From Ectocarpus siliculosus (Eukaryota > Sar > Phaeophyceae > Ectocarpales > Ectocarpaceae): a stretch of 46,658 nucleotides of DNA. Where the stretch lies: positions 1 through 46,658 of the forward strand of contig FN648777.1 in assembly GCA_000310025.1 (NCBI GenBank), written 5' to 3'. The notes beneath the pieces are model-generated. The model saw only the letters and a program-made list of their open reading frames with translations. It made no database searches and had not been told where the DNA came from. The translations under genes were made by a program, and so were the position numbers. Below, piece after piece: positions 3,943 through 46,658 of the stretch (positions are counted from its first letter, which is position 1; every line of letters begins with the position of its first letter).

Positions 3943-4309
3943 ACTACGAGATCTATACTCCAATCAAATAATCTAAGAATTGTACGCGTTCGCGGTTATC
4001 CTCCGTCCGATGGATTTTCAGTCTCCAGCGTTGACGACTTTTACTCCGCAGCGGTTGGAGACTGGAATCGCGTATGGTTCGGGGATTGTGCCGACGACGT
4101 CAACATTGTCATGTCAAAGTGGTATCCCAGCAGACGACGCCCAAGCTTCCGGAACCTGCAAGAGTTCAAGGAGAAGGTGTGCATGAAGCCAACGCTGGAT
4201 GATTCCGGTCAACCAATCGGGGAGGAACTCCACATCCCGACCATGAACCATTTTTTGGCGATCTGCCCATCTGCCGGAGACGGGACGGACGAGGGAAACC
4301 AACAGGCAA
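3943..4309 (+). CDS. Probable downstream exon, unrecognised
   Basis: Open in one frame with protein-like composition, including VDDFYSAAVGDWNRVWFGDC and EELHIPTMNHFLAICPSAG. It follows the OTU-like exon on the same strand. The start is placed after CCTGAG (phase 0); other acceptors are possible and the phase does not match the donor at 3724, so another small exon or a different boundary is likely. The end is placed near GAAACCAACAG. I do not recognise a family. It may belong to the same transcription unit as 3217-3724 and 4590-4758. Confidence 0.35.
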
Positions 4310-4589
4310 GGTGTCCTGTGCGGTTGGCGATACCAATGTCATAATCCGCTTTGGTTTACCACTGGTGTATGTACTTTTGCCCACAAGACTGGTCAGTACC
4401 CTAAACCTATTTGTAGGCTGCAAGCGGACCGTAAGCCCGACGCGGACACATCCAAGTTGTGAAAAATACCGTCCCCGCACCGCGAATGTGCAGCTAATCC
4501 AATTAAGACCTATGTATGCAGAACTACAGAAAAATCACTTTTAGAACGTACGCGTGTCGTTTTGTGGACGTGGCGCTTCTTTCCAGTCT

Positions 4590-4758
4590 GGGTCCGAGGA
4601 CCGGCAGGGAGACAAGAGCGCAGGGGGGGGGCAGGGAGAAGGGTCACAGAGCAGCGGACCCGAAAGTGACTCGGAACACGAGACGAACCGGCCCTCGGGA
4701 GGGGGGAAACCAGGCAGACCCAAGGGTAGCTCAGGCAAAAGCAGGTCCAACCAGACCG
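4590..4758 (+). CDS. Probable exon, polar tail with AT-hook-like motif
   Basis: An open segment between a pyrimidine-rich acceptor (CTTCTTTCCAG) and a donor (GACCGAG|GTGGGT). The translation is rich in S, G, E, D and K (GSEDRQGDKSAGGGQGEG) and contains KPGRPKGSSGK, close to the AT-hook core (GRP flanked by basic residues) that binds the minor groove of AT-rich DNA. It may be a DNA-binding or nuclear segment of the protein begun upstream. One degenerate AT-hook in a low-complexity segment is weak evidence. Confidence 0.35.
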
Positions 4759-4799
4759 AGGTGGGTCCCCAGACTTCATACTTCCTAAGAGTCAACCTG

Positions 4800-5950
4800 T
4801 GAGGAACTCGTTTGTCATTTCGTCAAAAGTATCCTAACCTTGTTGCCGACGAAAGGGATCTCTTCCAAGGTGAACGTGCCCAGTGTACGAATAGTATTGG
4901 ATACTTAATAAGCAAAGCCAGATTTGAAATCTGGGCTGAGGCTACCCCTAACACCGCAATCTAGGGCCCTTCAAGAAGTAAACGTTTGCCTGCCTGATCG
5001 CTTTATCTAGGTTTTAGACGACATCACGTGATTGTAAAGGGGGGCCAGCAGGACCGCACGTGACCACCCAGCCGATTACAGCCGCACATTGCCTAGGCGC
5101 ATGCTGTTTCTAGCAGTCAAGCGATATCGTGCCATTGTCAGCAGAGGTGCCGAGCAAAGCAGAGACCGCGAAGGAGGTGTAGGTTAATTGATACATGTTC
5201 ACAGCAGCAGTAGTTGGTGAGTGATCAGTAACAATAAATGTGGCATGCATCCGGCCCGCGGGTTGCGTCCGCATCCAATAATCCAGAAAAGAACATCAAT
5301 GGGTTAGCGACAGTCTTGCTTGTGACCACGGCACTATGACGCAACGGCTGACCAGTTCGATCTCACATCATGAGGACACTGATATGGCACGGATGTCTCT
5401 GGGCGTTCCGCGTCTTGGGTGTTGAGGTGCAGAGATGGATGAGCTTTCGAAGGCGCTTCGAGGCGGCAGCAGAAACCACACCAGCTGGGGGCAGACTGAT
5501 GATGCACGAAAACATCAACTGCAAAAAAAAAAAAAGGCTCTACATTCCACCTGCGGTGCCCCTCGAAATTAAAGCGCACTACGTATTTTCACTCGTTGAT
5601 TGTTGGTCAGCCGGTTTGCGCGGTCGAACCTAATACCATTCCTCCCGTAGACGCACACGTCTGAAGACATTCTGAAGACAGTTTCATCTATCAGCTGTCG
5701 CCCATTGTAGCTACAATGTCTTTCCTCTCTAACTCAAATCCCACGAAAGTCAAAGCCCGCCCGAAGGCAGACGTGTATTGACCGTATCGAGGACGCTCGG
5801 ATATCGCCATGCTAGTAGCTGGCTTGAATTGTTCCAGTATCTCATCTATAGATGAAGATAGGTAACAACTGAGTAAACCCCGCGACTGTACGGCTGGACT
5901 AACGAAATCGGCCGTTTTCTGCAAGAATCATGCAATACCTTAAGTCACAC
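4800..5950. other. No convincing gene; short repeat remnant
   Basis: No frame shows protein-like composition. 5580-5635 (GTCAGCCGGTTTGCGCGGTCGA) resembles a dispersed sequence also found at 17755-17790 and, on the opposite strand, in the 151-bp tandem repeat at 25251-25697. 5522-5536 is an A homopolymer. The interval could be an intron of the long plus-strand gene; an acceptor (TCACACAG) ends at 5952. Confidence 0.5.
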
Positions 5951-21633: not shown

Positions 21634-22397
21634 GTGCGTCTTGTTTTTTTGTGCTGTTTTTTTGTGTCCCGTATTTTGCACCCCGAATGCGCCGGGCACG
21701 AGAGCCGGGCCCGCTCACCCGAAAGTGGATCAGCCACTGTGTCGTACGAAAGTCGACTTCGTACAACGCAAAAAAATAAAAAAAAAATGTTTCCCTCTCC
21801 CTCCTTCATGGATTTGGCCCGCGCTGGCGTTGTTTGTGTTGTAGGCATGAATGTTGTTGAAGACACACACGGCTTTTTTTCCCCTTGACAATTGCAGGTT
21901 GGGAAGAAGGCTTTCTTTGTCCTCCCGTTGACTTTTTTGGGTTATAGGTGCTCGTACATTCTGTTTATATCCGATTGGTCCGTGTGTTTCGACCTCGAGA
22001 TCGTTTTTTCCTCTCCCGGTGCAATTCTGTCTGAACGTCCCTCCTCCCAACGATATGACACACGAGACGCTCGGGTCCAGGGCGTACGAATATACCACAC
22101 TTGTTGACCCCCTATCCCATCTCCCAACTCAACCCAGCCGAAATATCTACCGATGCCGATACACCGAAATCATCATGTTACACCAATGTACAGGACATCA
22201 TTTTCTCTCGGGCGAAACAAATTATAGGTGAAAGGCTGGACCGCACAGAAAGCGCATCACGACCGCATCCCTTGCATGCTTGCGCATACTTGAACCACTC
22301 GTACTGCAGTAGCAGCAAAGAATGCGCAACGAACCTAATAAATTTTCCACCACGTCACCCATTCGCCCATTCCCCTCGTCGTTTGTTCTCCGCCCAG

Positions 22398-22789
22398 ACG
22401 AATGCGTACGTTGAGCATTCCACGACGGAACCGCTAGAGGGTGAGGTTGACCCTCGGCGTAAGCACCAGCGATCGAAGAAAAGGACGCTTGGTCACGTTA
22501 CCTTGGATGATCCCGCCGAGCCAGACCAGGGTAACCCGTTCAACGAGGACAACATCTACGGCATGGTTGGCCTCACGATTATGATGGGACTCACGAAGAA
22601 AACCCGTATGAGAAAGCACTGGAGTACATCAGAACACGACAACTACCCTCTTGTGCGCAAGTGCATGCCGCGAGACAAGTTCGAGCTGCTGTATAGTCGG
22701 TTCATCCACTGTTCCGACGCCAACGCACCCTCGCGGGTCCTCGACGGCGGCACAGAAAACCCGGACTACGACTCCAAGTGGCACATCAG
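22398..22789 (+). pseudogene. piggyBac-type transposase, domain exon 2
   Basis: After TTGTTCTCCGCCCAG the frame reads TNAYVEHSTTEPLEGEVDPR, then NEDNIYGMVGLTIMMGLTKK, KHWSTSEHDNYPLVRKCMPR and FELLYSRFIHCSDANAPS. This is the N-terminal part of the PGBD domain (the region where family members read TNxY ... hxGhxhxMGhxxxP ... W ... M...F). It ends HIR in phase 2 at donor CACATCAG|GTGAGA and joins exactly to 23192. No internal stop. Confidence 0.8.
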
Positions 22790-23191
22790 GTGAGACTGGC
22801 GGTTTGTATCCCTTTCTGGTTGGTTGTGGTTGGCCTTCGTCTGGTACCCGTTCCTCCGTTTCAAAGACGTGACAAGATCCCCAGCACCCTTCACTCTCGG
22901 CAATCCGTCACCGTCGCGTGCGAGCGAAAATCGGTGTATGTCTGTATTTTTTTTTACTAATAGTTTTTTTTTTAGTCCGTTGCGTTGAATTTGGCGTATA
23001 CATGAGGACGGCACTAAGGTTAATAAAGCCTTTCCCCGCCGACCGTGATGTCCCCGCTTGCATTCGGGGCCAGGTACACGCGTGCCGTCAGTGTATCTGG
23101 TACGTTCGGGGAGATGACGTCCGTCCACACTGTCACTTATTCTATCGCGTGTTCTGTCGTCACCACCCGTGCCTTCGTCACATCTCGGCAG

Positions 23192-39775: not shown

Positions 39776-40428
39776 CTGACAATTGGGATGCAACACCTTG
39801 ACCGTTGTAAGCGTGAAAAATGAAGCTCGCATGTCGACCTGAGTATTGTCTCAAACACCTTGATGTCTTGGAAAATGATGGAACGCCGAAAACCCCATCG
39901 GGCAGCAACAGAATCACGCAAGTCTAATACGTCAAACGCTACCTTTGGCACGTGCACGAGTACAGTCACCAAACAACAGTAAACGGTGAAATCGAGACTC
40001 GTTTTCATGCAGCCACGTGCTTCTATGGATGCATCACGTTTCCGACGACATTCCGGTAGCAAAGATTCCCGCTACCATACCACCAGCAGAGCAAGCGCCT
40101 GACAATACAGAATCCGTGCGACTTGACACCCGTTCAAGTCTCACGGTACATTGGCACTAGCTGCTCTGCTCCCAACTCTCGAGAGCGTCATACCTAATGG
40201 GATTCCCATGGCAACATCGTTACGGAGAAGAAAAATGTCCTCCCACTATGATCGCTCATGTGAACGATACTGGAACATGGACAGCACAACATTGTCGATT
40301 GGGCGAATAGACCATGACAATTCCCACACGGGGTCGACTGTTCCCAGAACCGGGCGATTCGAGCGACCAGAAGTGTAGTCTGCTTAGACATTCATTGGTC
40401 CACAGACATACACGTGTTGAGGGCTTAC

Positions 40429-41191
40429 CTTGTTCGCAAAGAGCATCCCGTCGCCATGCTGAGGACATTTCAGAGAGCCTTTCCAGCGCAGTCCTGGAAA
40501 ATCCACCAGCATCAAGCTCACGGCAGACATCACGTATGACATCGCCATCCACGGCCCTGGGGTGCTGATATCGCCGAAAATTTGAGCAACAAGCTCATTA
40601 TCGATGGACGAGTATTCCACGACCACAGCAAATGTCCTGCGCTCATCTCGGACGCCGAGGCCGCCATGCACAAGCACCCCATATCGCCAGAATGTTTGCA
40701 CACCACGAAGACCGCAGCACCGCGTCAACACCTTTTCGACCGCACCCGGCGGTACACCCAGGAAGATCTTCCAACTGGCGCGGAATGCCGGGGTGAGTCC
40801 CGAGCAGAAGGTATCGATTACTTTGCCCGAACTCTCGGGGCGGTGTGGCTTTAGCCTCAACAGAACTACCAGGCCTTCAGCAGGATCGTTTTCGAGTGGG
40901 AAAGTGAGACCCAACGATGCCAGAGTCCGCAGCACATACTCGGACAGACCATCCGGCCACATGGCATCCGCCAACCTGGGTTCAAGCACACCCTCCTTGA
41001 GCCTGTCCCACGAAGCGATGTCTGATGGATCGTCGAGCGTGATGCGTGTGTCGTCCGTGTCCCCAAGATACACATGGCCGTCAAAGGCCTCTTGGTCCTT
41101 GTGGTTGAGTAAGGGCTTGAGGATTTTCGCCAGCAAAACGACATCGAGAAAGACAAATTTCTCGTGGCGAACGAGGAATCCGTCGAACTCC
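40429..41191 (-). CDS. ROCO GTPase, COR-domain exon
   Basis: Acceptor GTGCACGCAG; begins phase 2 to give R-EFDGFLVRHEKFVFLDVVLL, then AKILKPLLNHKD, GLSEYVLRTLASLGLTFPLE (the COR pattern of a hydrophobic LxxLG followed by a strand), TPAFRASWKIFLGVPPGAVE, VQTFWRYGVLVHGGLG and SLKCPQHGDGMLFANK. 763 nt with no stop, ending phase 0 at AACAAG|GTAAGC. COR ('C-terminal of Roc') is the dimerisation domain that couples GTPase state to output in ROCO proteins. Phases match both neighbouring exons, so this part of the gene looks intact. Confidence 0.8.
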
Positions 41192-41470
41192 CTGCGTGCA
41201 CAACGTTGTGAAGCCAAATGTACAAGTTGGAAAATCCGCCCAGGAGCAATCCAAGGTCCAAATTCCATGCGGATTCTTGGGAGGAAGCATCGTTGCAACG
41301 TCGTTTTCCGACAGGACCAACAAAATACTCGAGACCTAGACATATTAGCTTTCTAAGCGATCATGTACACCGAACTGCAGCCATGCTATACCTAGCATTG
41401 ACCATAGTAGGATCTCAAGCGTGGTGAAAAAAGAGGTCGCCAAATCGAAAAGCCGATTTGATCCATTTAC

Positions 41471-41674: not shown

Positions 41675-42105
41675 CTGCGAAAGCAGTATTAATACAACAA
41701 CACGTTCAAACGCTTTCATGTCGCCGGACTGTACATCTCGTCGGCGCTCGTGGCACGCCAGTGTTCGAGGACTGCATCCATACCTCTGCATCGTACGAGA
41801 TGCTAGTGCACAGCAAACACCAACTTATCGACATTTGGACGAAGGCCACTCGCGAACAAAATATGGGCACGTAGGCCCGAGAATCAACAACGGGAATTCG
41901 ACGGGGCATGGTGCCACGGGGCTACGTTTCGTCACCATGACCAGGCCGAAGAGGACGTACTCAATAGAGGTGTTCAACGTAGTGGTGTTCAAATCCCACC
42001 CAAAACGTCAAGTGAGCAAAGGGTCCACAGACACCTCCGGTCTCAACATACGAAGGTACCCAAAGTCGGTGTAGAGCCCAAGCGAAACTCCATGACCAAG
42101 CTCAC

Positions 42106-42584
42106 CGTCCGTGCTCGAGAGAATCCAGGAAAGTCAGGGCGATATCCCAGCTGCGAGGAAGTACATTCTGGACGCCTCGGGGCCCACCTTCGTCTGGCTT
42201 GTTGATGAGCCGGTACAGCAAACTGGGCGAGGGGTTATCGTCTTCCACGTCTCGCCAGTCGCACGCCCAACCCTGCTTCGACGCATTACTCCCAGTGCTA
42301 CTCTCGCCATGCTCACCAACTCCTATCGGGAAGCAACTCGTGAGGGAAACGTGGGGCTCCAGCCGGACGGGGTTCATACCATTGCGAACCCAGCTCGAAA
42401 GCCACGTCCTACAGGCAAGCTCTATTCTTTGTCCAGTTTCCTCAACGCCGCTCACCAAGTCACACTTGGTAGCGACCAGAATGACGTCGTTACCGGGAAC
42501 GCGACGAGATATTGACCGCAGCCAATCGCATACGCGCAATCCTTCCAGCTTGCGGCAGAACATTTTGGGTGTGGTCCCAGAGAG
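42106..42584 (-). CDS. ROCO GTPase, second half of the Roc (GTPase) domain
   Basis: Reads LSGTTPKMFCRKLEGLRVCD, WLRSISRRVPGNDVILVATK and CDLVSGVEETGQRIELACRT. VATKCD is the guanine-specificity motif ([NT]KxD) of Ras-like GTPases. The end, LPRSWDIALTFLDSLEHG, is the Roc C-terminus seen in this family. The exon leaves in phase 2 at GGACG|GTGAGC, matching 41674. The start is taken at TTGGCAG before 42584 (phase 0); an in-frame TGA at 42606-42608 bounds it. No P-loop (GxxxxGK[ST]) or DxxG is visible in this exon. Confidence 0.7.
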
Positions 42585-42608
42585 CTGCCAAGCGAACCGA
42601 GAGTGTCA

Positions 42609-43337: not shown

Positions 43338-43409
43338 GCCCGATACCAAAGGAGCCCGGGGGCCTCACCGACCTGAAGGTGCTTGGGCTGAGCAACAACA
43401 AACTTAGAG
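43338..43409 (+). CDS. LRR exon, plus strand (P1)
   Basis: 72 nt between AGACAG and AG|GTAAAC, phase 1-1. Encodes GPIPKEPGGLTDLKVLGLSN then NKLR, one plant-type LRR (GxIPxxLxxLxxLxxLxLxxNxL); the usual L after KE is P. It lies opposite in strand to the ROCO gene. Confidence 0.85.
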
Positions 43410-43645
43410 GTAAACTGGCAAGTACTGCACATATATTGTGTTTCTTGAAATTCCCGGATGGTGTTCCTTGACTCCTTTAGAAACAACGTTGCATGAATCC
43501 CACCCACGCGTAGGCTACTACGAAATTTCACAATTGCGGAACTCGCGGGACATCTTTTGCTACGCGTTGGTGATTAGTTGTTCTCGAAAGCGGGGAATTG
43601 TATTGTTTTTTCCTCGATGATCCCGTTTTGCTCTTCTGCTAGCAG

Positions 43646-43717
43646 GCCCCATCCCACCGGAGCTTGGAGATCTCCGAGAGCTGCGGGAGCTGTGGCTCCA
43701 CAACAACAAGCTCACAG
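43646..43717 (+). CDS. LRR exon, plus strand (P2)
   Basis: 72 nt between GCTAGCAG and CACAG|GTAAGC, phase 1-1. Encodes GPIPPELGDLRELRELWLHN then NKLT. The exon and flanks (43510-43780) are a direct duplicate of P3 and its flanks, 280 bp apart. Confidence 0.9.
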
Positions 43718-43925
43718 GTAAGCTTATTATTTTGGCAAGTCGTTTCAATATATTGTTAGCGCTGATTCTGGATGAACCTCGCGGATGCGTAGGCGAGTAC
43801 GAAATTTCACAATTGCGGAACTCACGGGACATCTTTTGCTACGCGTTGGTGCTTAGTTGTTCTCGAAAGCGGGGAATTGTATTGTTTTTTTCCCCGATGA
43901 TCCCGTTTTGCTCTTCTGCTTGCAG

Positions 43926-43997
43926 GCCCCATCCCACCGGAGCTTGGATATCTCCGAGAGCTGCGGGAGCTGTGGCTCCACAACAACAAGCTCACAG
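43926..43997 (+). CDS. LRR exon, plus strand (P3)
   Basis: 72 nt, phase 1-1; GPIPPELGYLRELRELWLHN then NKLT. It differs from P2 by one base (GGAGAT to GGATAT, Asp to Tyr). Acceptor CTTGCAG, donor CACAG|GTAAGC. Confidence 0.9.
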
Positions 43998-44133
43998 GTA
44001 AGCTTATTATTTTGGCAAGTCGTTTCAATATATTGTTAGCCTTGATTCTGGATGAACCTCGCGGATGCATCGGCGAGATTCATCCATGGATCAATGCTAG
44101 AAAAAAACTAAATCATCAAAATAAAGTAGGTAC

Positions 44134-44205
44134 CTGTAAGGTGGTTCGCGCTGAGCCGCAGCCACTGCAGCTGTCGGAGATCTCCTAGCTCTGGCGGGAT
44201 GTTGC
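44134..44205 (-). CDS. LRR exon, minus strand (M1)
   Basis: 72 nt on minus between CTGGCAG and TACAG|GTACCT, phase 1-1. Encodes GNIPPELGDLRQLQWLRLSA then NHLT. It is the minus LRR closest to the ROCO domains, so probably the last LRR before Roc if the exons are joined. Confidence 0.85.
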
Positions 44206-44286
44206 CTGCCAGACGAAGGGAAAATAAGAAGTTGGCGGGAGAAAAACAAAATTGATCCCCCGGCGTCTAGAAAAACGGTCCTGCCA

Positions 44287-44298
44287 ACGCGTACGCGT
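44287..44298. repeat. Perfect palindrome at LRR module seam
   Basis: ACGCGTACGCGT, repeated exactly at 45580-45591, with shorter forms CGCGTACGCG (45861-45870) and GCGTACGC (45312-45319). It lies where blocks of differing orientation meet. Confidence 0.9.
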
Positions 44299-44364
44299 CC
44301 ATGGATCTACGGAGATCGAACATAAAATAATGAGGATCAATCTAGTTTGCTTGTCTGCTTACAG

Positions 44365-44436
44365 GGCCTATCCCGCCGGAGCTGGGCAAGCTAACAGCGC
44401 TGGTGCAGCTTCGACTGTGGAACAACCAGCTATCCG
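44365..44436 (+). CDS. LRR exon, plus strand (P4)
   Basis: 72 nt between GCTTACAG and TCCG|GTGAGG, phase 1-1. Encodes GPIPPELGKLTALVQLRLWN then NQLS. It sits between two minus-strand LRR exons. Confidence 0.85.
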
Positions 44437-44590
44437 GTGAGGCTGAAGTTGAGCATGAATGCCGCGTATGTAATTGGCGTCATAAAAGTTATCCCGCTAG
44501 TTCTGAAGTTTCGTGGACGCGTACGCATACACGGGATTCATTTTGAAAATTCTTGGGATTTTTCTTCAACACATCTAAACAGTGTCTCAC

Positions 44591-44662
44591 CGCTTAGCTG
44601 GTTCTGGTGGAGGTACAGAGCTTGAAGTGCTGCGAGCTTTCCCAGCGCCGGCGGAATGGGAC
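44591..44662 (-). CDS. LRR exon, minus strand (M2)
   Basis: 72 nt on minus between CTTATAG and AGCG|GTGAGA, phase 1-1. Encodes GPIPPALGKLAALQALYLHQ then NQLS. Exon and flanks (44530-44760) are a close direct duplicate of M6 and its flanks (46075-46310). Confidence 0.85.
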
Positions 44663-44743
44663 CTATAAGTGGAAGAAGGAAAACGGAGTGATGGTTGCGG
44701 GTCAAAACAAAAATAATGCCCCGGCTTCTAGACCAGTGAGTGG

Positions 44744-44759
44744 ACGCCAACTAGTTGGC
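44744..44759. repeat. Perfect 16-bp palindrome at seam
   Basis: CGCCAACTAGTTGGCG between M2 and M3. A related half-site GGACGCCAACTAGCGTCGGC lies at 46295, next to M6/M7, and GGACGCCAACTGCGTACGCG at 45301. Confidence 0.9.
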
Positions 44760-44854
44760 GGGACGGGATCTACGGAGATCGATATACTAAACCAAACGTA
44801 CCCACTCACGCCGAATCGGTCGCGAAAGAGCTATCAATTCACGTGTTCACCCAC

Positions 44855-44926
44855 CGCTTAGCTGGTTGCCGGAAAGGGCGAGCTCCTCCAGTGCTGAAAG
44901 GTGCCCCAGCTCCAATGGGATGGGCC
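44855..44926 (-). CDS. LRR exon, minus strand (M3)
   Basis: 72 nt on minus between CTTGCAG and AGCG|GTGGGT, phase 1-1. Encodes GPIPLELGHLSALEELALSG then NQLS. Confidence 0.85.
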
Positions 44927-45000
44927 CTGCAAGAGGACGGGTGGAACGGAGTACCTGCGCGGGACAAAAAATATAACCCCCCGCTTTCTAGAACATCGGT

Positions 45001-45020
45001 CCCGCCTACTAGTAGGCGGG
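45001..45020. repeat. Perfect 20-bp palindrome at seam
   Basis: CCCGCCTACTAGTAGGCGGG, between M3 (minus) and P5 (plus), exactly where module orientation flips. The half-site CCGCCTA(C/T)TCAC recurs at 46061 and 46500. Confidence 0.9.
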
Positions 45021-45123
45021 TACGAAATTTCACAATTTCAGAACTCGCGGGACATCTTTTCCTACGCATTTTTTTTCTAGAACTGTCCTTAGTGATATTT
45101 CTCCCTACTGCATTATTGTGCAG

Positions 45124-45195
45124 GACCCATCCCCAAGGAGCTGGCAGCACTTAGTAGGCTGGAGATTCTTTGGCTCCACCGCAACAACCTCACAG
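45124..45195 (+). CDS. LRR exon, plus strand (P5)
   Basis: 72 nt between TTGTGCAG and CACAG|GTGAGA, phase 1-1. Encodes GPIPKELAALSRLEILWLHR then NNLT. Confidence 0.85.
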
Positions 45196-45416
45196 GTGAG
45201 AGAATCGAAGAGGAGTTGAAATTTTTCTTGTTCACGAAATAAGAATCCTGCGGACGTAATTGGCGTCATAAAAGTTATCCCGCTAGTTCTGAAGTTTCGT
45301 GGACGCCAACTGCGTACGCGTCCATCCAACTACATACACGGGATGTTCCACAGCATCATCAATGACAAAACCTAAACAACCGCCAAAATTATCGCGAAAA
45401 AATACGTAATTGGTAC

Positions 45417-45488
45417 CTGTGAGCTAGTTGCTTTTGAGCCACAGGACCCACAGCTCGCTGAGAGCCCCTAGCTCAGGTGGGATGTGGC
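45417..45488 (-). pseudogene. LRR exon with in-frame TAG, minus strand (M4)
   Basis: 72 nt on minus between CTTTCAG and CACAG|GTACCA, phase 1-1. Encodes GHIPPELGALSELWVLWLKS then N, stop, LT. The TAG (45424-45426) takes the place of the K or Q codon in NxL; one base change from CAG or AAG explains it. A transcript that included this exon would be truncated. Confidence 0.85.
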
Positions 45489-45730
45489 CTGAAAGCGGAC
45501 AGGGGGAACATAATAGCTCAGCGGGGCAAAAAAAATGTATCTTCCCGTTTCTAGAACACACCTTCTCACCTACGCATGGACGCGTACGCGTAGGCGAGTA
45601 CGAAATTTCACAACTACGGAACTCGCTGGATATCTTTTGCTAAGCGTAGTCGGGTCCGATGTTCTAGAACTCGGGGGATGTTTTTTTGCTCTACCTCGCT
45701 AAATTACCCTTTTGACTCGTTCCTCTACAG

Positions 45731-45802
45731 GCCACATTCCGCCGCAGCTGGGAGATCTTGGTGCTCTCAAGTCCCTCAGCCTCTTCAACAACAAACTAGG
45801 CG
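45731..45802 (+). CDS. LRR exon, plus strand (P6)
   Basis: 72 nt between CCTCTACAG and GGCG|GTGAGT, phase 1-1. Encodes GHIPPQLGDLGALKSLSLFN then NKLG. Confidence 0.85.
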
Positions 45803-45939
45803 GTGAGTTGAACAGATCGAAAGTATTTTATTCTGTCGGGTTCTGAACATGCATGAATCCCGCGTACGCGTCGGCGAGATTCATGTACCTTGTGTCAACA
45901 TATTTAGTAAATGAAATGGATTTCATCTTCTGGACTCAC

Positions 45940-46011
45940 CATCTAACTTGTTGATGCTGAGATTGAGTCCCTTCAAGGCGCCAAGTTTCCCTAGCTCCGG
46001 AGGGATAAGAC
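45940..46011 (-). CDS. LRR exon, minus strand (M5)
   Basis: 72 nt on minus between CTTGCAG and GATG|GTGAGT, phase 1-1. Encodes GLIPPELGKLGALKGLNLSI then NKLD. Exon and flanks (45870-46075) are a direct duplicate of M7 and its flanks (46305-46500). Confidence 0.85.
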
Positions 46012-46142
46012 CTGCAAGCAGGAGAGCAGTACGAGAAAAACAGAGAATTGACTAAATGCTTCTCCGCCTATTCACGCACACACGGGATTCATTTTGAAAA
46101 TTCCTGGGATTTTTTTTTTAACACATCTAAACAGTGTCTCAC

Positions 46143-46214
46143 CGCTTAGCTGGTTCCCGTAGAGGTACAGATTTCGAAGCGCTGCGAGCTTTCCCAGCGC
46201 CGGCGGAACGGGAC
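46143..46214 (-). CDS. LRR exon, minus strand (M6)
   Basis: 72 nt on minus between CTTACAG and AGCG|GTGAGA, phase 1-1. Encodes GPVPPALGKLAALRNLYLYG then NQLS. Duplicate of M2; compared with it, the differences fall mainly in the variable positions of the LxxLxLxxN segment. Confidence 0.85.
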
Positions 46215-46375
46215 CTGTAAGTGGAAGAAGGAAAACGGAGTGATGGTTGCGGGTCAAAAAAAAAAAATGCCCCGGCTTCTAGACCAGTGAGTGGACGCCA
46301 ACTAGCGTCGGCGAGATTCACGTACCTTGTGTCAACATAATAGTAAATATAATGGATTTCATCTCCTGGACTCAC

Positions 46376-46447
46376 CATCTAACTTGTTGCCGCTGAGTGC
46401 GAGTGTCTTCAACGCACCAAGCTTCCCTAGCTCCGGAGGGATAGGAC
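46376..46447 (-). CDS. LRR exon, minus strand (M7)
   Basis: 72 nt on minus between CTTGCAG and GATG|GTGAGT, phase 1-1. Encodes GPIPPELGKLGALKTLALSG then NKLD. Duplicate of M5. The array continues beyond the window, since the repeated flank at 46500-46560 follows. Confidence 0.85.
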
Positions 46448-46658
46448 CTGCAAGCAGGAGAGCAGTACGAGAAAAACAGAGAATTGACTAAATACTTCTC
46501 CGCCTACTCACCCACACGCGTAGCAAAAGATGTCCCGCGAGTTCCGCCATTGTGAAATGCAAGGGTATGTTCTGTAGGGTCTGTAACTTTCTGTAGGGTA
46601 TCCGAAGTTGTCACAGAACTCACAGAACTATCGGGTAGGTATTGGAAGTGTCACAGAA

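Follow-up and report, generated by a model that had tools for sequence, protein, structure and literature searches.

Positions 1 to 46,658 of contig FN648777.1 of Ectocarpus siliculosus, the whole stretch of DNA analysed here (the window), carry at 43338-46447 thirteen LRR exons in the strand order + + + - + - - + - + - - -, and the question raised by this locus is how the exons of one receptor array come to lie on both strands. Exon shuffling of LRR-ROCO genes in brown algae was reportedly described by Zambounis in 2012. The available portions of Teng 2024 (PMC11378527) describe 72-nt LRR exons, each encoding one repeat of 23 residues, in a gene with Roc, and give residues 14, 16, 18 and 19 as the sites of diversity; somatic recombination has been proposed for brown algal LRR-ROCO genes, and Teng notes that there are no reports of a recombinase or of a somatic rearrangement. 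As far as those portions go, the arrays studied here agree in exon length, in one repeat per exon, probably in the presence of Roc, and in the diversity residues; of the eight largest cassette families, five show this diversity clearly and three weakly. The phase, 1-1 here, is called 2 there for the same layout, in which nucleotides 3-71 give the 23 residues. Antisense exons, cassette borders and a joint site, all present here, are unmentioned in the same portions. The reading that we prefer, with a probability of about 0.6, is heritable break-and-join shuffling of exons at a defined site within the LRR region of one minus-strand LRR-ROCO gene.

All 13 exons have the fixed length of 72 nt and the single phase 1-1, with AG before and GT after, and the sequence-only reading was borne out in coordinates, strand order, splice borders and phase. 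One point has to be corrected: 12 of the 13 are open, and the minus exon at 45417-45488 contains an in-frame TAG. The array belongs to a single minus-strand gene, of which it is the LRR part, and a Roc-like frame adjoins it on the left; the plus exons are therefore antisense. As the contig ends about 200 nt past the last exon, the 5' end of the gene lies outside the window. The coding features are:

40387..41352, minus strand: open frame downstream of the Roc-like frame, 75% amino acid identity in C109
42105..42605, minus strand: Roc-like frame downstream of the array, 85% amino acid identity to an ORF of C109 (L023)
43338..43409, plus strand: antisense LRR exon at the edge next to Roc
43646..43717, plus strand: antisense LRR exon, open
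43926..43997, plus strand: antisense LRR exon, open
44134..44205, minus strand: sense LRR exon, open
44365..44436, plus strand: antisense LRR exon, open
44591..44662, minus strand: sense LRR exon, open
44855..44926, minus strand: sense LRR exon, open
45124..45195, plus strand: antisense LRR exon, open
45417..45488, minus strand: sense LRR exon with in-frame TAG stop
45731..45802, plus strand: antisense LRR exon, open
45940..46011, minus strand: sense LRR exon, open
46143..46214, minus strand: sense LRR exon, open; locus L028 holds a solitary relative of its cassette
46376..46447, minus strand: sense LRR exon, open

Neither of the two frames has a Pfam match. Roc scores above the Pfam cut-off next to L015 and L021, a minority of the arrays having been followed to their 3' end, and in the window Roc is assigned by similarity only; the C109 ORF that matches the Roc-like frame is also matched by the Roc-like ORF of L021. 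The frame at 40387-41352 is perhaps COR, judged by its position; the one COR match (PF16095) in the genome lies elsewhere. A collinear match (91%) to the C109 paralogue takes in the exon 43338..43409 and ends at about 43510, at the joint-like sequence CCCACC-CACGCGTA-GGCTAC, which is absent from the strict list of joints given below.

Mixed orientation is neither peculiar to the window nor a matter of chance. Applied to 14 further arrays (L009-L022), the same strict exon pattern finds exons on both strands in 13; in L016, the exception, four exons share one strand. These arrays and the window make up the 15 used for gap counts; four LRR loci that are more widely spaced or more decayed, L025 and L031-L033, stand outside them. 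All counts come from one genome assembly; an assembly error is an unlikely source of the mixture, which recurs at 13 loci besides the window, and the joints have a defined form. An N-terminal cap exon lies on the same fetched stretch in 11 of the 15 arrays, and a twelfth, belonging to the C5 array (L021), on the adjacent stretch L029; the window, L015 and L016 yielded none. All 12 caps point into their array and no stretch has a second one. The idea of two antiparallel receptor genes, raised from the sequence alone, was set aside on the single, inward-pointing cap per array where one was found and on the minus strand of the Roc-like frame in the window.

Neighbouring cassettes, in whatever orientation, abut at a palindrome of the form CCCGCC-NAY-(GC or TA)-RTN-GGCGGG. 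With a hexamer list derived from the very arrays counted, the strict joint was scored in 127 of the 186 gaps between exons in the 15 arrays, against a mean of 0.025 and a maximum of 1 in 40 dinucleotide shuffles; 59 gaps are without it, 35 of them also without the loose form. Strict matches number 138 across 41.9 kb of gaps; the control sequence, 121.6 kb long, has 4, three of which lie within L024, itself an LRR locus. The shuffles and the control sequence rule out chance palindromes. The loose form discriminates less well, being present in 151 of 186 gaps (shuffle mean 6.6) and 50 times in the 121.6 kb of control, and a 20-mer search with at most 3 mismatches gave a modest genome-wide enrichment (456 against 302 in the control, per strand). 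Since the joint is equally common in same-orientation pairs, its origin as a by-product of head-to-head arrangement was rejected. Two stretches adjoining NB-ARC matches (8.2 kb) contain no strict joint, and a system common with NB-TPR genes was dropped on this result. In the window there are 11 strict joints, on which the sequence-only reading is silent, all at 43778-46315 and none in the rest of the 46.7 kb:

43778..43797: palindromic joint CTCGCG-GAT-GC-GTA-GGCGAG
44058..44077: palindromic joint, GC core
44280..44299: palindromic joint, GC core
44516..44535: palindromic joint, GC core
44743..44762: palindromic joint, TA core
45001..45020: palindromic joint CCCGCC-TAC-TA-GTA-GGCGGG, TA core
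45247..45267: joint, 3-nt core GTA
45268..45301: body of an exonless spacer cassette, between the joints on either side
45302..45322: joint, 3-nt core TGC
45579..45598: palindromic joint, GC core
45859..45878: palindromic joint, GC core
46294..46315: joint, 4-nt core TAGC

The exon cassettes bounded by such joints measure about 240 bp, and their ends are interchangeable: 145 joints divide into 38 of 3'-3', 37 of 5'-3', 37 of 5'-5' and 33 of 3'-5' arrangement. The core is 2 nt long in 104 of 110 joints between ends of the same type and 3 nt in 29 of 31 mixed joints, with an excess of same-type joints (odds ratio 7, p=1e-5). After joints with similar flanks were merged, the rule holds for 83 of 86 same-type and 21 of 22 mixed joints, of 112 in all. 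This is the pattern expected from 2-nt cohesive ends, and the joints probably arose by double-strand cuts with 2-nt overhangs followed by end joining. V(D)J recombination, which assembles receptor segments by break-and-join, is an analogy; here, by contrast, core length tracks end type, and variable P or N additions independent of end type were not encountered. The palindromes also raised the idea of hairpins opened as in V(D)J recombination to leave P nucleotides, which was given up since no base is added in 104 of 110 same-type joints.

The shuffling that we prefer would proceed as follows. Each cassette, an LRR exon with a partial intron on either side, bears the same outward half-site, CCCGCC-NAY, at both ends. 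Cuts there would leave self-complementary overhangs of GC or TA, which could rejoin the ends of other cassettes in either direction, whether within one array or between arrays. Any sense cassette could be spliced in, the exons being 72 nt long and of phase 1-1, and a cassette that landed backward would presumably be skipped as intron. Such antisense exons would be parked, and would decay unless a later event turned or copied them to sense.

It may be asked instead whether the joints act in RNA, as intronic hairpins that guide alternative splicing of LRR exons and are kept by selection. They are indeed palindromes between exons, and the available portions of PMC11378527 report alternative splicing of Ectocarpus LRR exons. 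We regard this as very improbable, since it explains neither the core-length rule nor why antisense exons have a joint on either side, and leaves unaccounted for the tendency of similarity between loci to end at joints.

That similarity was examined at a threshold of at least 92% identity over at least 100 nt, each pair being counted both ways. Copies of cassettes occur at several loci (854 of 952 matches are between different arrays) and their orientation is random, with 480 matches inverted and 472 direct. Together with the discrete cassette ends, this upholds the suggestion that inversion took place besides duplication. Of the 952 matches, 862 cross no strict joint. Of all match ends, 40% fall no more than 12 nt from a strict joint, against 6% of random points; this is true of both ends in only 159 of the matches. 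Between L010 and L011 the flanks are collinear and 83-94% identical, and the arrays between them are scrambled. In the window, 45770-45865, overlapping the exon 45731..45802, matches a 99-nt piece (1-99) of L023 at 77%, lying the other way round with respect to the gene. These observations suggest that exons were cut out, flipped and moved between genes, and such events were probably heritable.

If repeated introns underwent unequal crossover, gene conversion and small inversions, with the palindrome as a by-product of the copies of one ancestral intron, this would account for the joints that are shared: 88 of the 952 matches span one joint and 2 span two, and 12 of 28 shared neighbour pairs retain their arrangement. 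Ectopic recombination has also been proposed, in the available part of PMC6564038, for LRR exon shuffling in Tetrahymena. The intron-sequence families are, however, unrelated and have little in common past the terminal half-site, match ends are enriched at joints, and homologous recombination does not predict a core length that depends on end type; we consider this explanation quite unlikely.

The half-sites, as short inverted repeats at both cassette ends, bring to mind MITE-like cassettes moved by a DNA transposase, with joints as abutting repeats bearing excision footprints and orientation as a matter of ordinary insertion. The TA cores recall Tc1/mariner target sites, and a solitary exon cassette, with a half-site at its start, is found at L028 away from all arrays; its right end is truncated and it has no clear target-site duplication. 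Against this, all 47 genomic matches to a 22-mer from the exonless spacer are at array loci, and an extended half-site falls at fetched LRR loci in 64 of 78 matches, the other 14 being unread. The GC cores and the 2- versus 3-nt rule also differ from simple target-site duplication, and a non-exhaustive search met no autonomous element with these ends. A transposon of this kind is unlikely, and dispersal is not supported, the spacer copies being at array loci with one solitary exon cassette as the exception.

Searches for a recombinase or nuclease that could make the joints, by PF00239 and RAG1, identified none. The serine recombinase domain PF00239 has one match in the genome, adjoining an ORF that we take to be TnpB-like, and as the enzyme of the joints it was rejected because it looks like part of an IS607-type element. 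The RAG1 search was without match, and its control was likewise silent.

Constraint on antisense exons is relaxed. Judged by splice borders, length and stops, 21 of 118 antisense exons are broken (97 intact) against 6 of 143 sense exons, in a census of loci with an assigned gene strand, which omits L016 and leaves two matches containing N unclassed; the strict LRR pattern as criterion (79 of 120 intact) inflates antisense decay. Leaving out L022 and L031 weakens the contrast, with 110 of 115 sense and 87 of 100 antisense exons intact (p=0.027). In sense-antisense pairs the structural codons change nearly at the neutral pace (2.40 of 3.04). Breakage and near-neutral codons argue against frequent heritable flipping, which must be too rare, or insufficiently heritable, to equalise sense and antisense exons; the proposed reservoir of exons flipped into use is possible.

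In the bacterial shufflon of plasmid R64, with Rci, segments bounded by a repeated site occur in either orientation. Repeated sites likewise bound the segments here; the differences, as far as the available part of PMC11852207 goes, are a eukaryotic host, a near-symmetric site, two core types and exons as segments. Lamprey VLR genes also have LRR cassettes either way round near a receptor gene, which in the available part of PMC3308329 flank an incomplete gene and serve as copying templates, whereas the cassettes here are intragenic and have splice sites and a common end site. Donor cassettes outside the gene that act as copying templates were not encountered; at C5 the cap is on one side of the cassettes and Roc on the other. 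The 90-nt LRR exons of Tetrahymena, likewise uniform in length and phase, have also been shuffled on a massive scale, for which the available part of PMC6564038 proposes ectopic recombination and retrotransposition and mentions no palindromic border.

That the joining is programmed in brown algae, with 2-nt cohesive-end cuts reordering or flipping LRR cassettes in living individuals, we hold to be a long shot. If true, it would be an exon-level analogue of the shufflon that diversifies candidate immune receptors, and receptor diversity would be generated through exons and splicing outside animals. Joining confined to the germline would still be a concrete mechanism that moves single exons either way round. 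Exon shuffling of brown algal receptors has already been described, in the available portions of that description without a DNA signature of the joining; the borders, the palindromic joint and the core-length rule make the earlier proposal of somatic recombination testable.

The thirteen 72-nt LRR exons that the sequence-only reading had placed within 43338-46447, six on the plus and seven on the minus strand in the order + + + - + - - + - + - - -, were recovered as described, each with AG/GT borders and phase 1-1. Twelve of the 13 have an open frame; the minus exon 45417-45488 carries an in-frame TAG. Only 211 nt (46448-46658) are left between the last exon and the contig end. Contig C109 likewise begins within an array, and exons of two further stretches of this genome, L009 and L014, run into N. 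LRR arrays may be difficult to assemble, or they may vary.

The assembly searched (189 Mb, 492 contigs) contains further clusters of such exons, and 20 stretches were taken for reading. Joint and exon counts refer to the window and L009-L022, 15 arrays in all. A strict exon pattern shows both orientations in 14 of them, the exception being L016 with four exons on one strand. Four additional, less regular LRR loci (L025, L031, L032 and L033) were left out of the gap counts.

The exons lie in cassettes, each an exon with part of the intron on either side, and a similar half-site closes the flanks of exon families otherwise poor in common intron sequence. Two such ends form a palindromic joint with the consensus CCCGCC-NAY-core-RTN-GGCGGG. 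The joint pattern consists of 20 hexamers drawn from these same arrays, and gaps >900 nt were excluded. Strict joints occupy 127 of 186 inter-exon gaps (mean 0.025, maximum 1 in 40 dinucleotide shuffles) and loose joints 151 (mean 6.6, maximum 16). The 41.9 kb of gaps contain 138 strict and 168 loose matches, compared with 4 and 50 in 121.6 kb outside the counted arrays; three of these four strict matches are in L024, which itself has LRR exons. No strict joint was found in two NB-TPR stretches (8.2 kb in all). In the whole genome the enrichment is only modest: a 20-mer with up to 3 mismatches matches 456 times per strand, the reversed pattern 302 times. All 11 strict joints of the window lie within 43778-46315. 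The median one-exon cassette flanked by strict joints is 240 nt long (n=85).

End pairings and cores were counted in 145 strict joints from arrays of known strand and L031. The four pairings of cassette ends are about equally common (38, 37, 37 and 33), which rules out that the palindrome is a by-product of inversion. Cassette ends were typed by the adjoining core base, G or T. Same-type joints are over-represented (odds ratio 7, p=1e-5). The core is 2 nt long (GC or TA) in 104/110 same-type joints and 3 nt long (e.g. GCA, GTA, TGC, TAC) in 29/31 mixed joints; the remaining 4 of the 145 have different end bases. With joints of similar flanks merged (112 left), 83/86 same-type joints have a 2-nt and 21/22 mixed joints a 3-nt core. 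We infer that this is the pattern expected from 2-nt self-complementary overhangs: matching ends would anneal and non-matching ends would be joined with a one-base shift, and the core-length rule would result. The best explanation, with a probability of about 0.6, is heritable break-and-join: exon cassettes would have been cut and rejoined at a defined palindromic site. L022, L025, L031 and L033, which show wider spacing, fewer strict joints or more exon decay, may represent this process at a late stage.

A resolvase search of the genome gave a single match, a serine recombinase domain at L034 558-1478 (minus). The adjoining ORF is presumably TnpB-like, and the two probably represent an element of the IS607 type, here in a eukaryote; as an apparent part of such an element, the resolvase was rejected as the joining enzyme. 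A RAG1 search of the genome gave no match, but its control was silent too. Window 22059-22790 (plus) matches Pfam DDE_Tnp_1_7 (E=1.3e-8) and is taken by us to be a fragment of a piggyBac-type transposase.

Similarity matches among arrays (identity ≥92%, length ≥100 nt, each pair counted in both directions) number 952, of which 854 link different arrays; 480 are inverted and 472 direct. No strict joint is crossed by 862 of them, one by 88 and two by 2. Of the match ends, 40% are no more than 12 nt away from a strict joint (random points: 6%); both ends are so placed in only 159 of the 952 matches. Neighbour pairs in common between arrays are few (28), with the arrangement kept in 12 and changed in 16. 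The flanks of L010 and L011, which share a contig, are 92-94% identical at one end of the arrays and 83-90% at the opposite end, and the intervening arrays are scrambled. The window and C109 are collinear (84.5-91%) to about 43510, a joint-like sequence past the edge exon; nt 1-99 of C109 align at 77% with a portion of the window's 45731 cassette and are oriented the other way round with respect to the gene. A 22-mer of the spacer, a cassette without exon, has 47 matches genome-wide with up to 2 mismatches, all 47 at array loci. L028 holds one lone exon cassette away from the arrays, with a half-site at its start and the other end truncated. At 4013-5102 in the array L019 a two-cassette block is duplicated in inverse orientation.

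A conserved first exon (MASTDREAL...), the N-terminal cap, adjoins 11 of the 15 arrays, and a twelfth, for the C5 array (L021), was found on the adjacent stretch L029; all 12 caps aim into their own array. None was found beside the window, L015 or L016. Roc passes the Pfam cut-off downstream of the array at L015, and at L021 on the array side opposite to the cap, so that at the C5 locus cap, array and Roc follow one another on a single strand. Two frames of the window are relevant here:

42105-42605, minus strand: Roc-like frame, 85% identity to a C109 ORF that the L021 Roc-like ORF matches too
40387-41352, minus strand: second frame, 75% identity to C109

Neither frame passes Pfam on its own. 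From these frames we take the window gene to be on the minus strand, so that seven exons are sense (on the gene strand) and six antisense (opposite it), and the cap to lie past the contig end. In the paralogue C109 the Roc-like region is split by about 5.5 kb compared with the window gene (L023 1047-6598).

Of the eight largest cassette families, five vary mainly at residues 14, 16, 18 and 19 and have intron flanks that are alike; the pattern is weaker in the other three. The parts of Teng 2024 consulted already report these residues as positively selected (PMC11378527). A sensitive exon census covered L031 and the 14 arrays whose strand is known: sense exons number 143 and antisense exons 118 (binomial p=0.14), of which 137 and 97, respectively, are intact (p=4e-4); with L022 and L031 removed the values are 110/115 and 87/100 (p=0.027). 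Codon changes were compared in 219 sense, 187 sense-antisense and 54 antisense pairs, which are not independent. Structural codons changed per pair were 1.48, 2.40 and 1.54, respectively (expected 3.00, 3.04 and 2.67), and non-synonymous changes in six variable codons 2.69, 2.50 and 1.59. Antisense exons thus bear the diversity of expressed exons, yet are now relaxed. Broken antisense exons number 21/118 (18%), 7 of them through length change; in a simulation with substitutions alone, 11, 18 and 25% of exons were broken at neutral divergences of 2, 3.5 and 5%, so that decay since turning may have been close to neutral.

The window resembles brown algal LRR-ROCO genes as published, with 72-nt LRR exons beside a Roc-like frame, which suggests a brown alga; the consulted parts of Teng 2024 cover these exons, their shuffling, selection and alternative splicing, note that neither somatic rearrangement nor a recombinase had been reported, and contain no mention of antisense exons under the strand and orientation terms checked (PMC11378527). 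Among the papers listed by literature searches, no title or abstract opening describes such joints. Lamprey VLR cassettes likewise occur in either orientation but differ in functioning as copy templates, according to the portion of the source consulted (PMC3308329). Programmed flipping in living individuals is improbable, and the condition of the antisense exons argues against heritable flipping at high frequency. Under heritable break-and-join, cassette orientation would be left to chance and splicing would act as the filter.
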